Source: Gemmatimonadota bacterium (GTDB lineage: Bacteria; GCA-2686955). From it: DNA of 7,660 nucleotides. Location of the stretch: contig NYZA01000218.1 of the NCBI GenBank assembly GCA_002686955.1, positions 1 to 7,660 on the forward strand, given 5' to 3'. The notes under the pieces are model-generated. The model saw only the letters and a list, made by a program, of their open reading frames with translations. It ran no database searches and was not told the DNA's origin. How positions within the stretch are numbered: the first letter of the stretch is position 1; every line of letters starts with the position of its first letter. Both the position numbers and the translations under genes were made by a program. Below, one piece after another: positions 122 through 6,186 of this stretch.

Positions 122-3100
122 TCATCTGCGCATCGGACGATTCCGATACCGCTCCCAGAGCCGGGTCTGTTTGCTTTCTAGGGGAACTCGCCGCCCACCG
201 ATGAAGAGATGCTCGATCCGTGTGCGTATATCTAGGGGGTCGCCGGTCGTGACGATCAGGCTGGCATCCATCCCCGCGGCCAACGATCCGATCCGATCAT
301 CCACGCCCAGAATCTCGGCTGGATAGAGGGTGATCGCGCTCAGCGCCTCTTCGGATGACAAACCGAAGGCGGCCGAGGATGCCGCCACATAGGGCAGGTT
401 CCGCACATTCGAATCCCAGGCGTAGGTGATGCCGAATCTCACCCCCGCGTCTCGCAGCACCGCCGCGGAGCGGAAGACCGAATCGTATCGATCCCAGTCG
501 CGCGCCGGCAGGCGATGGGCGCCGTCGAGGAGGATCGGAACGCGTCGCTCCGCCAGCCACCGAGCGCAGCGCCAGGCTTGCCGGCCGCCGACGATGACCG
601 GCGCCAGCTCTTGCTCCGTCGCCCAGCGCACGGCCGCCTTGATTTGGCCGGCCTCATTGGCCTCGATCAGCACCGGACTGGTTCCCGCGATCGCGCCCCG
701 CATCGCCTCCCAGCGGCGGTCTTCCTCGACCGGCGGTCCCGCGCCCTTTTCGGCGGCCGCCCGCGCGGAAATGTAGGCACGGGCCTCGGCAAAGGTGTCG
801 TCGAGCTCGCGGATCGCCCGGCGTCGCTCGGTCCGTTGCTCATCGATCGGCGTCTTCGCCTCTTCCGAGTAGTCGATCGCCACCGACGGAAACACGATGT
901 TCAGTCCCGCCGGCGCCAGAAGGGTCATCTCTTCCCAGGTCCAACCGTCGAGCTGAATCACTGCCGAGCTGCCGGAGATCAGCCCCCCTTTGGGACGACA
1001 GAGTGCGTGCGTGATGCCGTTCAGCCGGGCAACCGGGATCAGATCCGAATCTGGGTTGAGGCCTACTTCCGCGCGAATCTCGGGCCGAACCCGTCCAACC
1101 TCATCGATATCGTTGCTGGCTCGTACCGCGTCGATCTCGACCAATCCCAGATGGGTCTTGGCGTCGAAAAGCCCGGGATAGATGTGCAGTCCCTCGACAT
1201 CGATCTCCTTCGTTCCAGCGGGAATCGGAAAGTCGTTGCCCACCGCGATGATCTCGCCGCCGCGCATCAGAAGAACGCCACCACGCAGCGGTGTACCGAC
1301 CATCGTATGCACGGTGCCGCCGACCAGCGCGGTCGTTTTCATTCCCGCCCCGTCGCCCAGAGAATGGTCGGTCGAAGCCCGCTGAGAGCGCAGGGCCTGG
1401 CGCACAGCCACCGGAGCGGCGTCGACCACGTCCTCGGTAACCACGCTTTCGGTCGCTCCCGATCGGTCAGCGGCCGCAGCATCACCGTCCTCGTCCTCCT
1501 CCTCGTCTCCCTCTTTCTCCGCGGCGCCCTCGGCCAGCGCGAGCAGCGATTCGTGTTCGGCGCGCAGCTCGGCCTGGATCTCCCGGTCGACGCTCCGATC
1601 GAAATAGAGCTGGCCATCCACCCAGGTCTGATCGCAGACGCTCAGGGTCGATAGGGGGTCGTCGGTCCACAGAGCAAGATCGGCGTCTTTCCCGATCTCG
1701 AGCGAGCCGACGCGGTGGTCGATTCGCAGCTGCCGCGCGGGATTGATCGTCACCAGCGCGAGCGCCTCTTCTTCGCCGAGATCGCCGTACTTGATCGCCT
1801 TTGCCGCCTCGGTGTTCAGACGGCGGGCCATCTCGCCGCTGTCGGAGTTGAACGAAACCGTCACACCGCGCCGTGTCATCAGCGCCCCATTCCACGGAAT
1901 CGCGTCTTTCACTTCGAATTTGTAGGCCCACCAATCGCTGAAAGTCGATGCCCCCGTGCCCGCCGCCGCGATTTCATCGGCGACTTTGTACCCTTCGAGG
2001 GCGTGCTGGAAACAGGCCACCCTGAATCCGAAATCTTCCGCGACGCGAAGAAGCATCAACATTTCATCTTGCCGGTAAGCGTGGCAGTGGATGAAACGTT
2101 CTCCCCGCAGGATCTCGGCGAGTGTCTCGAGCTCGAGATCGATCCGTTGAGGCAAGCGCCCACGCGTCTTCTCCTCCGAGCGCCTCATATAGTCGCGGGC
2201 CGCCGAGAATCGTTCCCGTATGAACGCCTCGACTCCGTTACGTGTCTGGGGGAATCGCGTCGTGTACTTCTCTCCCCAGTTCGACTGCTTCACATTTTCG
2301 CCCAGCGCGAACTTGATCGTCGGTGGTGCCTCGGTGAAGTGAAGCCCATCGGGACCAGTACCCCAGCGAAGTTTGATCGTGGCGTTCTGTCCGCCCATGG
2401 CGTTCGCCGAACCATGCATCAGATGCGATGTCGTCACGCCGCCCGCGAGCTGCCGGTAGATGATCGGCCGGTTGGGATTCAAGACATCGCCGATCCGCAC
2501 TTGCGCGGAGCTCGATTCGGTGCCCTCGTTGACCCCGCCATCGATCGCGATATGGGAATGAGCGTCGATCAGGCCGGGCGTCAGATGCCGGCCGCTTGCA
2601 TCGACCACATGCGCGCCTTTCGGAGCCGAGAGAGATTGCCCGATTTTGTGAATTCGACCCCTCTCGACCAAGAGATCGGCGTGCTCGAGAATTCCCGCCG
2701 AGCTTTGAGTCCAAATCGTGGCGTTCCTGAACAAGGTCTTCCGGGGACTGAGGACGGGACCGGAGGGGCGCGCGGATGCGACCGCGGAGGCCTGCGCCGG
2801 CGGCTCCATCTCCTCTTCCGCGCCCGCTTCGTCTTTCACCTCCGCATCGTGCGCGGCTTCATCGGTGGCCAGAGACCCGGAACCCCAGTGGTGGCGGCCG
2901 TCGATCCACACCGCCAGAATCTGTGTCGCCTCGTCGAAGATCGGTCCGTCGCTTATGAGCAGATCGGCGGCATGTCCCCTCCGGATCGAGCCGGTCCGAC
3001 TCGATACGCCGCAGAGCTCGGCCGGCGTCGTGGTGAGCGCGGCAAGCGCGTCTTCGTGCGACAACCCGGCATCGATCGCCCTGCGTAGTGCAGCGGGGAA

Positions 3101-4144
3101 GTCGGCGGGAGACTCGAGTCCGTGGGTCGTGAGTGCGATCGGCACCTCCGCATCGCGCAGAGCCGCGGCGTTGCCCGACGCGTGATGCCAGCGGCGCAGT
3201 GCTCGCAGAGAGATATGTTGGCGCTCGTCGTCATCCATCTCCTCGACCCGAAGTCGAGCCGGGAATCGGAGCGGCACGATGAAAGGTGCCTTCAGCTTCG
3301 CGAGCTCTTCGAGGTGCTCGTATTCGAGTCCGCTGCCGAGGATTCGGTAGTCGAGCTCCGCCTCGCCGGCGATTCGGGCCGCTCGCAGCGCATCCAGCGC
3401 GTTCGATCCGGCCAGTTCTACTGGTAGATCGCCGTCGAGGGAGGGGAGCAGGGCGCGTAGCCCGCGGTTCCGATCCGGTCGCGGCAGCCGATCGGGAGAG
3501 CGTTCCCAGGCAGCGAGCGCCTCGCGCTGGTGATCGGCGTCGAGCCAGGTCTGCCGAATGAAGGCGATGACCCCCATGAGCGAAGATGGATAGGTTTCGT
3601 CGTTCGGGAGCTCGCGCTGGAATGCGATGACCTGCTGAACCTCGCCCCGGAGCAGATTGGCGCCTGCCTGCCCGTCGGAAAGCGCGACCAACGCCGAGGT
3701 GCCTCGAAAGATGCCGCGATTCGGCGACAGATTCAGTGCGGTGAAACCAAGATCGCGATACGACTTTCTGGCCGCTTCATCGAGCGCGAACGCCCCCGCC
3801 GCCGAAAACTCCGCGCGCATTTCGGCGTGCGGATGTTGATCGCCGCTCGGCTCCCGATCGGCCGCTTCGCCCAACCCTGCCTCGACATGCGCGTCGATCA
3901 ATCCCGAGTAGATCCAATGATCCTCGTGAGACCAGATGCGCGTCCCATCCCCCGCGTCGATCCTCTCCCCGACCGCCCGTATGAGGCCGTCTTCGATCAG
4001 GATCGAAGCGTTCCGCAAGGTGTCGCCGGGCGCGCGGACCACGGTCGCGCCGATCAATGCGTGGCGGCCGGGCGCTTCGGCGGCGGTTGCGCCCTGGGCT
4101 AGGGCGACAAGGGCCGTAAAGAGCGGAATTGAGCGGTGGCGCAT
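122..4144 (-). CDS. Secreted triple-domain amidohydrolase, central domain catalytic
   Basis: A 1340-residue exported protein of the metal-dependent amidohydrolase superfamily; substrate unknown. The start at 4144 is chosen because MRHRSIPLFTALVALAQGATAA is a clear Sec signal (cleavage near residue 21-22), whereas the open frame further upstream encodes only Arg/Pro-rich, non-protein-like sequence. No strong Shine-Dalgarno is visible. Three domains follow: about 28-421, 468-848 and 935-1340, separated by Ala/Glu/Asp-rich linkers (DEEEDED at 880-886). Each ends in the same element: TGSIRRG, VGSLEIG and IGSLAAG, with glycines at 385, 813 and 1286. Domain 2 has the full metal set: H529 and H531, H686 with H688, H714 and D768, plus K611 in a conserved KFALGEN segment. 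Domain 1 reads DAHVEAG (H86, E88) and domain 3 DAKTHLG (K996, H998), so both have lost the HxH pair. The domain 1-2 arrangement resembles known ~1000-residue amidohydrolases and domain 3 resembles separate ~430-residue proteins, suggesting a gene fusion. It is transcribed divergently from the ATPase pair. Confidence 0.9.
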   Translation of the reverse strand: MRHRSIPLFTALVALAQGATAAEAPGRHALIGATVVRAPGDTLRNASILIEDGLIRAVGERIDAGDGTRIWSHEDHWIYSGLIDAHVEAGLGEAADREPSGDQHPHAEMRAEFSAAGAFALDEAARKSYRDLGFTALNLSPNRGIFRGTSALVALSDGQAGANLLRGEVQQVIAFQRELPNDETYPSSLMGVIAFIRQTWLDADHQREALAAWERSPDRLPRPDRNRGLRALLPSLDGDLPVELAGSNALDALRAARIAGEAELDYRILGSGLEYEHLEELAKLKAPFIVPLRFPARLRVEEMDDDERQHISLRALRRWHHASGNAAALRDAEVPIALTTHGLESPADFPAALRRAIDAGLSHEDALAALTTTPAELCGVSSRTGSIRRGHAADLLISDGPIFDEATQILAVWIDGRHHWGSGSLATDEAAHDAEVKDEAGAEEEMEPPAQASAVASARPSGPVLSPRKTLFRNATIWTQSSAGILEHADLLVERGRIHKIGQSLSAPKGAHVVDASGRHLTPGLIDAHSHIAIDGGVNEGTESSSAQVRIGDVLNPNRPIIYRQLAGGVTTSHLMHGSANAMGGQNATIKLRWGTGPDGLHFTEAPPTIKFALGENVKQSNWGEKYTTRFPQTRNGVEAFIRERFSAARDYMRRSEEKTRGRLPQRIDLELETLAEILRGERFIHCHAYRQDEMLMLLRVAEDFGFRVACFQHALEGYKVADEIAAAGTGASTFSDWWAYKFEVKDAIPWNGALMTRRGVTVSFNSDSGEMARRLNTEAAKAIKYGDLGEEEALALVTINPARQLRIDHRVGSLEIGKDADLALWTDDPLSTLSVCDQTWVDGQLYFDRSVDREIQAELRAEHESLLALAEGAAEKEGDEEEDEDGDAAAADRSGATESVVTEDVVDAAPVAVRQALRSQRASTDHSLGDGAGMKTTALVGGTVHTMVGTPLRGGVLLMRGGEIIAVGNDFPIPAGTKEIDVEGLHIYPGLFDAKTHLGLVEIDAVRASNDIDEVGRVRPEIRAEVGLNPDSDLIPVARLNGITHALCRPKGGLISGSSAVIQLDGWTWEEMTLLAPAGLNIVFPSVAIDYSEEAKTPIDEQRTERRRAIRELDDTFAEARAYISARAAAEKGAGPPVEEDRRWEAMRGAIAGTSPVLIEANEAGQIKAAVRWATEQELAPVIVGGRQAWRCARWLAERRVPILLDGAHRLPARDWDRYDSVFRSAAVLRDAGVRFGITYAWDSNVRNLPYVAASSAAFGLSSEEALSAITLYPAEILGVDDRIGSLAAGMDASLIVTTGDPLDIRTRIEHLFIGGRRVPLESKQTRLWERYRNRPMRR

Positions 4145-4185: not shown

Positions 4186-4411
4186 AGGATAGCGGGTTCC
4201 CGCGACGGACGAAGTGCGGATGCTCTTCGGCGCGGCGACGAGAAAGGGCCGGACGACAATGTGGGGAAGAGCAACGCGACCGGCGTTGATGCAGCGGCGG
4301 CCGTAATCGACTGCGTTTGTTCCGAGGTGCGCTTTCGCTTTGAGCTAGAATTGCTTCCCTTTTCGGTGCGTGCAAGCGCCGATGATCCCCGCCTGGCGCA
4401 AGCGCCTAGCT

Positions 4412-4418
4412 GAGGTGG
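4412..4418 (+). promoter_or_regulatory. Shine-Dalgarno sequence deciding the ATPase start
   Basis: GAGGTGG lies eight bases before the ATG at 4427. It is the best ribosome binding site near the beginning of the ATPase frame. In-frame GTG at 4370 and ATG at 4382 lack a comparable site, and the residues they would add do not resemble the family N-terminus. This supports initiation at 4427. Confidence 0.7.
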
Positions 4419-4426
4419 ACCCTGCG

Positions 4427-5578
4427 ATGAGCAAAGATCCAAGATTCAGCAGCCTGCACATGCAGAACTGGAAGAATTTCGCTGGGGTCGAAATCGCCAT
4501 CCAGAATCGCCTCTTCTTGGTGGGCCCCAATGCGTCGGGTAAGTCGAATCTCCTCGACGTGTTCCGATTCCTTGAGGACCTGGCCTCCTCGGGAGGTGGG
4601 TTTCAAGAGGCAATCCGGCGCCGCGGCGGCGTCAGCGCCATTCGCTGCCTGGCGGCGCGGCGCCACCCGGACGTGGAGATCCGCGTCGAAGTTCAATCGA
4701 CGGGCGACGAGTCGCGATGGTCCTATTCGCTGGCGTTCCACCAGGACAGGCAGGGACGTCCGCTCGTGCGCTCCGAGAGCGTGCGGCGAGGCGAGGAGGT
4801 GCTGCTGGATCGCCCTGACAGCGAAGACCGGAGTGACCCGGAACGCCTGACCCAGACCCACCTCGAGCAGGTGAACGTCAATCGTGAGTTTCGAGATCTC
4901 TCCACGCTCTTTGCGTCCGTCCGTTATCTACACATCGTCCCGCAGTTGGTTCGCGAACCGGATCGTTCCATCGGCCGTGAGGGCGATCCCTACGGTGGCG
5001 ACTTCCTGGAGCAAGTAGCGGGAACCCCGGAACGTACACAGAAGGCGCGGCTGCGGCACATTCGCGACGCTCTTCGCGTTGCAGTGCCTCAGCTTGAGGA
5101 GATCGAGCTCACACGCGACAAGCGGGGCATGCCGCACCTTCGGGGCAAGTATGGGCATTGGCGGCCCCAGGGCGCCTGGCAGACAGAGGAGCAATTCTCG
5201 GACGGCACACTGCGACTCCTGGGCCTGCTCTGGGTGGCGATGGACAAAGAGGGTCCGCTGCTCTTGGAGGAACCCGAACTGTCGCTTCATCCCGAGATCG
5301 TGCGGGTTCTGCCTCAGATGTTGGCGCGGGCTCAGCGCCGGACCGGGAGACAGGTCTTCCTCAGCACTCACGCGCCGGAGCTTCTCCGTGACGACGGTAT
5401 CGGTATGGACGAGGTTCTTCTTCTCGAGCCGGGCAGCGAGGGCACGACGGTCGAGCCCGCCGGTTCGAGCCGGGAGATTCGCGACCTGCTCGACGGCGGT
5501 CTGACCCTCGCCGACATCGTGATTCCCAAGACTCGGCCGCCGAGCGCCGAGCAGTTGGCCTTGTTCGGGAACGATTGA
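4427..5578 (+). CDS. RecF/OLD-like AAA ATPase (AAA_21 type), partner of a TOPRIM-like protein
   Basis: A 383-residue cytoplasmic ATPase of the ABC-like RecF/SMC/OLD group, probably close to the AAA_21 predicted ATPases (COG4637-like). The N-terminal strand SLHMQNWKNF leads into Walker A GPNASGKS at 33-40. A long insertion (about 60-250) includes YLHIVPQLVREPDR, typical of the group. The signature-like FSDGTLR begins at F257, Walker B LLLEEPELSLHP has catalytic E281/E282, and the H-loop is STH with H315. All nucleotide-binding elements are therefore present and the protein should hydrolyse ATP as a dimer. There is no C-terminal TOPRIM domain as in OLD or GajA; the next gene appears to supply it. 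The tail ends AEQLALFGND, and QLALF (376-380) matches the sliding-clamp-binding pattern. Its stop overlaps the next start (TGATG), a sign of translational coupling. A role in defence or DNA damage is inference from architecture. Confidence 0.88.
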   Translation: MSKDPRFSSLHMQNWKNFAGVEIAIQNRLFLVGPNASGKSNLLDVFRFLEDLASSGGGFQEAIRRRGGVSAIRCLAARRHPDVEIRVEVQSTGDESRWSYSLAFHQDRQGRPLVRSESVRRGEEVLLDRPDSEDRSDPERLTQTHLEQVNVNREFRDLSTLFASVRYLHIVPQLVREPDRSIGREGDPYGGDFLEQVAGTPERTQKARLRHIRDALRVAVPQLEEIELTRDKRGMPHLRGKYGHWRPQGAWQTEEQFSDGTLRLLGLLWVAMDKEGPLLLEEPELSLHPEIVRVLPQMLARAQRRTGRQVFLSTHAPELLRDDGIGMDEVLLLEPGSEGTTVEPAGSSREIRDLLDGGLTLADIVIPKTRPPSAEQLALFGND

Positions 5579-6186
5579 TGATGGACGCCCCGGCAATCCT
5601 CTCGGCGGCTGTCGAAGGCATAGTCGATGAGGCGGTTGTTCGACGACTGATCGTCGATGCCGGCGGCCGGCCGGGAACGGTGTATGGAAGGAACGGCAAG
5701 CAGGCGCTACGGCAGAAGATCGATGGCTACAACAATGCCGCGCTCCGTGCGCCTTGGATCGTAGTTGTGGATCTGGACCACGAATGTGACTGTGCGCCAC
5801 GCCTTCGCGAGGCATGGCTTCCCCGACCAGCGCCCCACCTCTGCTTTCGCGTCGCCGTCCGCGCCATCGAGGCCTGGCTGATGGCCGATGCCGAGACGCT
5901 GGCCCCGTTCCTCGGCGTGGGTCGGAGCCATGTGCCACGCGATCCCGAGGCCGCGGCTGATCCGAAACGAGAGTTGATCGACTTGGCCCGCCGTTCTCGC
6001 CGCCGGGCGATCCGGGAGGATATGGTGCCTCGCGAGGGGAGCGGCCGACGGGTCGGGCCAGCCTATTCATCGACGCTCATAGAATACGTGGGGACGAGAT
6101 GGCGCCCCAAGACTGCCGCGAGGCACGCTAAGAGTCTTCGGAGAGCCATCGCCTGCCTGGAGAGGCTGATCGGGGCGGGCGCATGA
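5578..6186 (+). CDS. TOPRIM-like DUF4276-type protein coupled to the ATPase
   Basis: A 202-residue protein I place, from memory of the family, with DUF4276-type TOPRIM-like proteins. The visible pattern fits a TOPRIM fold: a first strand ending VEG with E13 followed by D17/E18, then a hydrophobic strand IVVVDLD with D65 and D67 followed by E69 and D71. FRVAVRAIEAWLMAD (E98, W100) is characteristic of the family, as is the later basic segment with SRRRAIRED and PREGSGRRVGP (about 140-161). Such acidic clusters bind Mg2+ in topoisomerases, primases and OLD nucleases, so nuclease activity is plausible but unproven. The ATG at 5578 shares its A with the ATPase TGA; CGGGA at 5566-5570 is a modest ribosome binding site. 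ATG at 5581 and TTG at 5575 are less likely starts. One-to-one coupling implies a complex with the ATPase. It is shorter than OLD-family TOPRIM regions and has no ATPase of its own. Confidence 0.75.
   Translation: MMDAPAILSAAVEGIVDEAVVRRLIVDAGGRPGTVYGRNGKQALRQKIDGYNNAALRAPWIVVVDLDHECDCAPRLREAWLPRPAPHLCFRVAVRAIEAWLMADAETLAPFLGVGRSHVPRDPEAAADPKRELIDLARRSRRRAIREDMVPREGSGRRVGPAYSSTLIEYVGTRWRPKTAARHAKSLRRAIACLERLIGAGA

Follow-up and report, generated by a model that had tools for sequence, protein, structure and literature searches.

An ATPase and a Toprim domain are joined in one chain in the class 2 OLD nucleases, whose metal ligands are E400, E404, D455, D457, T506 and E508 (PMC6755086). Gabija likewise has a single ATPase-Toprim chain, GajA, with the helicase GajB as its partner, whereas PARIS divides the two functions between two chains, AriA and AriB, the latter a DUF4435 protein. 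A further ATPase and Toprim pair is catalogued in PADLOC as HEC-01, where HEC stands for 'Hma-embedded candidate'. A 2026 article (PMC12988326) credits the HECs to Payne et al., a preprint of 2024, and reports antiviral activity for several of them, HEC-06 included. Our literature searches on DUF4276, HEC-01 and clamp-binding defence systems found no relevant experimental paper, and none with experiments on HEC-01 itself. Here we describe a gene pair in a 7,660-nucleotide stretch of DNA (the window) that is a member of HEC-01, a little-studied candidate anti-virus system. The pair had been put forward as something unrecognised; its architecture is not new, because PADLOC already lists it.

The gene pair and its closest relatives

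The two genes lie on the forward strand. HEC-01A (positions 4427-5578) encodes a 383-residue ATPase of the RecF/Rad50/PtuA-head type without a Toprim domain, and HEC-01B (positions 5578-6186) a stand-alone Toprim protein of 202 residues. They share one base in a TGATG stop/start overlap (positions 5576-5580), and the coordinates, frames and overlap given in the preliminary description are correct. This overlap likely couples translation of the two genes; in most relatives they are likewise separated by gaps, or joined by overlaps, of a few bases. A forward-strand GAGGTGG (positions 4412-4418), 8 nt 5' of the HEC-01A ATG and inside the hmaB-like relic described below, may serve as its ribosome-binding site, judging by its Shine-Dalgarno-like sequence. 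Both proteins match their PADLOC models over the full length, HEC-01A with an E-value of 1.3e-158 and 526 bits (PDLC04180) and HEC-01B with 6.8e-64 and 213 bits (PDLC04194). No NCBIfam model exceeded its cut-off for the pair, Rfam gave no match anywhere in the window, and composition analysis did not mark the pair as foreign.

HEC-01A matches Pfam AAA_21 (2.3e-37). Its Walker A (GPNASGKS, with K39), signature (FSDGT), Walker B (LLLEEPE) and H-loop (H315) motifs, previously read as intact, are all present and are essentially invariant in an alignment of 27 homologues. AlphaFold predictions were made for HEC-01A and HEC-01B, each as a single chain. The HEC-01A model (mean pLDDT 90.9) matched the heads of SMC, Rad50 and PtuA at Z 19-22 and contains no Toprim domain, in agreement with what had been said of the ATPase from its sequence.

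The predicted structure of HEC-01B (mean pLDDT 94.2), on which the preliminary description had made its reading depend, is with high confidence an OLD-like Toprim fold. Foldseek by itself did not match HEC-01B significantly to any PDB structure or viral model, and searching solved structures by sequence likewise produced no significant hit; the relation to OLD and AriB emerged only when the Foldseek candidates were realigned. The best of these was the C-terminal Toprim region of OLD (6nk8_B, Z 9.4 over 161 residues, 3.6 Å), followed by AriB of PARIS (Z 8.5) and GajA (Z 7.3), with an RloB-like protein among the weak matches. Since unrelated folds also reach Z 8-8.5 against HEC-01B, over approximately 100 residues, the case for an OLD-type domain depends on the match extending over the entire domain and on residue conservation. 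Across 29 aligned homologues E13 and D65 never vary and D67 almost never does, bearing out the acidic pattern reported earlier, and E98, W100, K130 and other positions are also conserved. By their order in the sequence, E13, D65, D67 and E98 are plausible counterparts of OLD E400, D455, D457 and E508; the less conserved D17 falls at the sequence position of OLD E404, and K130 was considered as a possible counterpart of OLD K562. By this ordering, HEC-01B has the Glu, DxD and helical-domain Glu of an OLD-type Toprim. Its description as a DUF4276-type protein stands as a distant relationship and fails as family membership, with Pfam DUF4276 (PF14103) scoring 19.8 bits (E 0.001) against a gathering cut-off of 30.2; a second type of HEC-01B protein at locus L005 exceeds that cut-off. 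In line with the earlier reading, it gives no DUF4435 match, a Pfam search up to E=1 yielding only the sub-threshold DUF4276 match.

HEC-01 therefore resembles class 2 OLD in combining ATPase and Toprim, with a matching metal-ligand pattern, and differs in having two separate chains where OLD has one; membership of single-chain OLD was rejected on the separate genes and the Toprim-less HEC-01A model. PARIS has the same two-chain layout, and AriB is a close structural neighbour of HEC-01B. AriB, however, belongs to DUF4435 whereas HEC-01B is a distant relative of DUF4276, and membership of PARIS was rejected for want of a DUF4435 match. GajA has a related ATPase N-terminus (6e-14) as well as a related Toprim domain, but is a single chain with a helicase partner; Gabija was rejected since the neighbours of the pair are an amidohydrolase and a methyltransferase, with no GajB UvrD-like helicase. 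HEC-01A also matches the mad3 model of MADS (6.3e-20) and the AbiLi model (1.2e-22), which recalls AbiL/RloAB, but it lies far below the mad3 cut-off and the window contains neither a methylation-associated operon nor an RloB partner. The pair is accordingly neither a single chain of the OLD or GajA kind nor PARIS, as the preliminary description held, and with a Toprim HEC-01B beside a Toprim-less HEC-01A the architecture is OLD-like but split.

The HEC-01A tail and a proposed mechanism

At the extreme C-terminus of HEC-01A, after a linker of variable sequence, stands QLALF (residues 376-380; positions 5552-5566, forward strand), a candidate binding motif for the beta sliding clamp (DnaN), with QLDLF, QLTLF, QLSLF and similar sequences in relatives. 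Bacterial sliding-clamp ligands have the form QL[S/D]LF, the wider consensus being Q-phi-x-[LM]-[FL] or Q-phi-x-[LM]-x-[FL], and are often C-terminal (PMC13254535, PMC4549789, PMC9690074). The QLALF of the window fits this published consensus, which is found in the last 15 residues of 28 of 51 HEC-01A homologues (18/33 at below 70% identity); among background proteins it occurs in only 1 of 594, and among shuffled tails in 1%. About 45% of the homologues miss the consensus, many narrowly (QMDLF, QLSLW). A stricter pattern was fixed before a further phylum was sampled, with an expected pass rate of 40%, and only one of the seven sequences from that phylum passed. Six of the same seven fit the published consensus, which was consulted only later, because it admits the six-residue form (QLTLVF, QLSLQF). 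The Hma-embedded copies of HEC-01A at L005-L007 have degenerate tails (ELPLF, RLSVF, RLSRF), and other HEC-01A subfamilies are without the motif. In view of these mixed results, namely the failure of the strict pattern and the degenerate and motif-less tails, we treat DnaN binding as a good hypothesis suggested by the motif and not as a result. We found no description of such a tail for HEC-01, nor of clamp recruitment of any Toprim-ATPase defence system, in the literature searched.

Our preferred reading, to which we give a probability of roughly 0.7, is that HEC-01 is a candidate anti-mobile-element module working as a split OLD nuclease, with its ATPase probably docked on the clamp. HEC-01A would be a dimerising ATPase of the Rad50/RecF type and HEC-01B a separate Toprim nuclease subunit supplied by coupled translation. 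The ATPase probably holds HEC-01B inactive or positions it, as may be compared with AriA and AriB, or with the Toprim domain within OLD and GajA. An infection-specific DNA or replication state would trigger an ATP-dependent rearrangement by which the ATPase licenses the Toprim nuclease, and HEC-01B would then cut nucleic acid by a two-metal mechanism (E13, D65/D67, E98). We infer the complex, the nuclease activity and the trigger alike. The QLxLF/QLxLxF tail would probably anchor the complex to the sliding clamp of the host, bringing it to active replication forks; this fully clamp-tethered version, in which the HEC-01A tail binds DnaN and the complex rides the host clamp and acts at forks, we hold more tentatively, at slightly short of even odds.

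The strongest competing explanation is modelled on PARIS and resembles a toxin-antitoxin pair: HEC-01B would be a Toprim toxin that targets RNA and is kept in check by HEC-01A, and the tail would contact HEC-01B or the ATPase in place of the clamp. That AriB ranks with the best structural matches to HEC-01B, and AriA with the PADLOC relatives of HEC-01A, is consistent with this, as is the modelling of the tail, with moderate confidence, as a short helix. HEC-01B has no DUF4435 match, however, and the QLxLF and QLxLxF variants are known forms of clamp ligand that are rare at other C-termini (the 1/594 above). We regard this arrangement as unlikely, while keeping it in serious consideration beside the split OLD nuclease.

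Distribution and genomic setting

Strong HEC-01 matches occur in 1.5-5% of the genomes sampled from four phyla: in 20-21 of 396 genomes of the first phylum and, in further phyla, in 6/398 for HEC-01B and in 17/382 and 8/395 for HEC-01A. Searches with either protein (tblastn) found no homologues in plasmid and phage collections, and a scan of viral contigs gave no HEC-01 copies. Decayed copies are present at L004, L057 and L097. At L004 (positions 726-3920) the HEC-01A gene is interrupted by an IS-like insertion whose ORFs are 164 and 335 residues long, and at L097 HEC-01B is a remnant adjoining an HEC-01A that likewise has a degenerate tail motif.

By our own count, about 12 of 42 loci have Hma, restriction-modification or related genes next to the pair; in about 30 of the 42 no recognised defence gene lies beside it, and most pairs are solitary. 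The neighbours are of the HmaA/HmaB/HmaC, type III Res/Mod, SNF2 helicase plus type IIG enzyme, and GmrSD types. The gene order at L005 is HmaA, HEC-01A, HEC-01B, HmaB, two further ATPase/DUF4276-type pairs and HmaC, and at L049 it is HmaA, the HEC-01 pair, HmaB and HEC-03B. Hma genes or Hma-type helicases lie near the pair at L006, L007 and L105, a type III methyltransferase and ResIII-type proteins adjoin it at L053, L058 and L062, a SNF2 helicase and type IIG enzyme at L044, GmrSD at L117, and HmaA-like or NOV_C-containing proteins at L063 and L109. For 78 length-matched control proteins elsewhere in the same genomes, no Hma or restriction-modification family was among the 25 families listed, and among those listed there were only isolated single hits, mostly of kinase type. 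The L005 locus (positions 5382-20574) is a single Hma island that carries three separate ATPase plus DUF4276-type pairs.

In the window itself the neighbours identified by Pfam are the amidohydrolase and the methyltransferase, so that the earlier account of the flanking genes as ordinary enzymes was right; its corollary, that no defence island is in view, has to be amended for the hmaB-like relic upstream and for the relatives in Hma and restriction-modification loci. A sister genome of the same family (L146, G001:C706) has the same amidohydrolase and methyltransferase-SpoU flanks with a 503-residue gene and no HEC-01 pair, which identifies the interval as a variable site. The amidohydrolase flank (positions 122-4144, reverse strand) encodes a 1340-residue protein in which several stretches are of amidohydrolase type, apparently as tandem or fused amidohydrolases, and is conserved in the sister genome.

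These observations bear on a second alternative, that HEC-01 is a RecF-like, clamp-tethered DNA-repair module which aids stalled forks instead of acting in phage defence. A RecF-like ATPase, a clamp-type motif and the solitary state of most pairs would suit such a role, but the patchy presence, the repeated embedding by Hma and restriction-modification genes, the three decayed copies and the missing pair at the same site in the sister genome argue against it, and we think it improbable. The pair behaves like a mobile defence system in being patchy, paired, beside defence genes and missing from the sister site. Defence activity of HEC-01 is likely, judging by its context, patchiness and family.

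Unpaired homologues conserved in core genomes, named beforehand as evidence against a two-gene defence system, are not what the survey returned; pairing is near-constant and distribution patchy. In the phylum of 396 genomes, a strong HEC-01B (E up to 1e-37) occurs in 20, and these same 20 hold a strong HEC-01A, one additional genome having a diverged HEC-01A (5.9e-79). Full-length HEC-01A is adjoined on the same strand by HEC-01B in nearly all cases, mostly within a few bases, the exceptions being contig ends and the L097 remnant. That two unrelated genes stand side by side by chance, as the ordinary flanking enzymes might allow, is refuted by this co-occurrence, with order, strand and coupling conserved in dozens of loci from several phyla. 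The split OLD-like sensor-effector suggested in the preliminary description is supported by the Toprim fold, the Toprim-less ATPase and a patchy pair kept as a unit.

An hmaB-like relic and its meaning for the family

Directly upstream of HEC-01A and in frame with it, positions 4382-4426 (forward strand; MIPAWRKRLAEVDPA) look like a 13-codon relic of the start of hmaB, the gene of the Hma DNA methylase. The N-termini of HmaB are MIPRDCKRLAEVDFPIA at L005, MIPKQCKRLAEVEFPIA at L006 and MIPKKCKRLAEVDFPIA at L007, and the candidate relic is identical to them at 10 of 13 residues (MIP...KRLAEVD); the best unrelated match, in 1.63 million translated positions, reaches 7/13. The comparison was picked after the data were seen, but a match of this extent is not easily put down to chance. 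In intact islands hmaB follows the pair at L005 and L049 and precedes it at L007. A second relic of an hmaB start (MIPKECKRLADVDFHIAVV) lies within the Hma island of L006 (positions 12194-12469), ahead of other cargo genes. Elsewhere in the genome of the window, an HmaA N-terminus (3.1e-46; L087:3-359, contig C50) runs off the contig end, as if the assembly had broken up an Hma locus; a search of this 84.5%-complete assembly did not find HmaB. By full-length model match the window encodes the same proteins as the catalogued HEC-01, whose relatives sit inside Hma islands, whereas here only the hmaB-like relic adjoins the pair and no complete Hma is in view. The relic suggests that HEC-01 pairs depart from Hma islands and then survive as solitary cassettes.

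The family itself was already known; what appears new is the clamp-type tail motif of HEC-01A and the hmaB-like relic. An anonymous gene pair is now placed in a catalogued candidate defence family, and that family gains a predicted nuclease subunit with active-site residues that can be tested. Recruitment by the sliding clamp offers a concrete hypothesis for how an ATPase-Toprim defence system may find its target. If HEC-01 pairs do survive in this solitary form, simple searches for defence islands will miss many of them.
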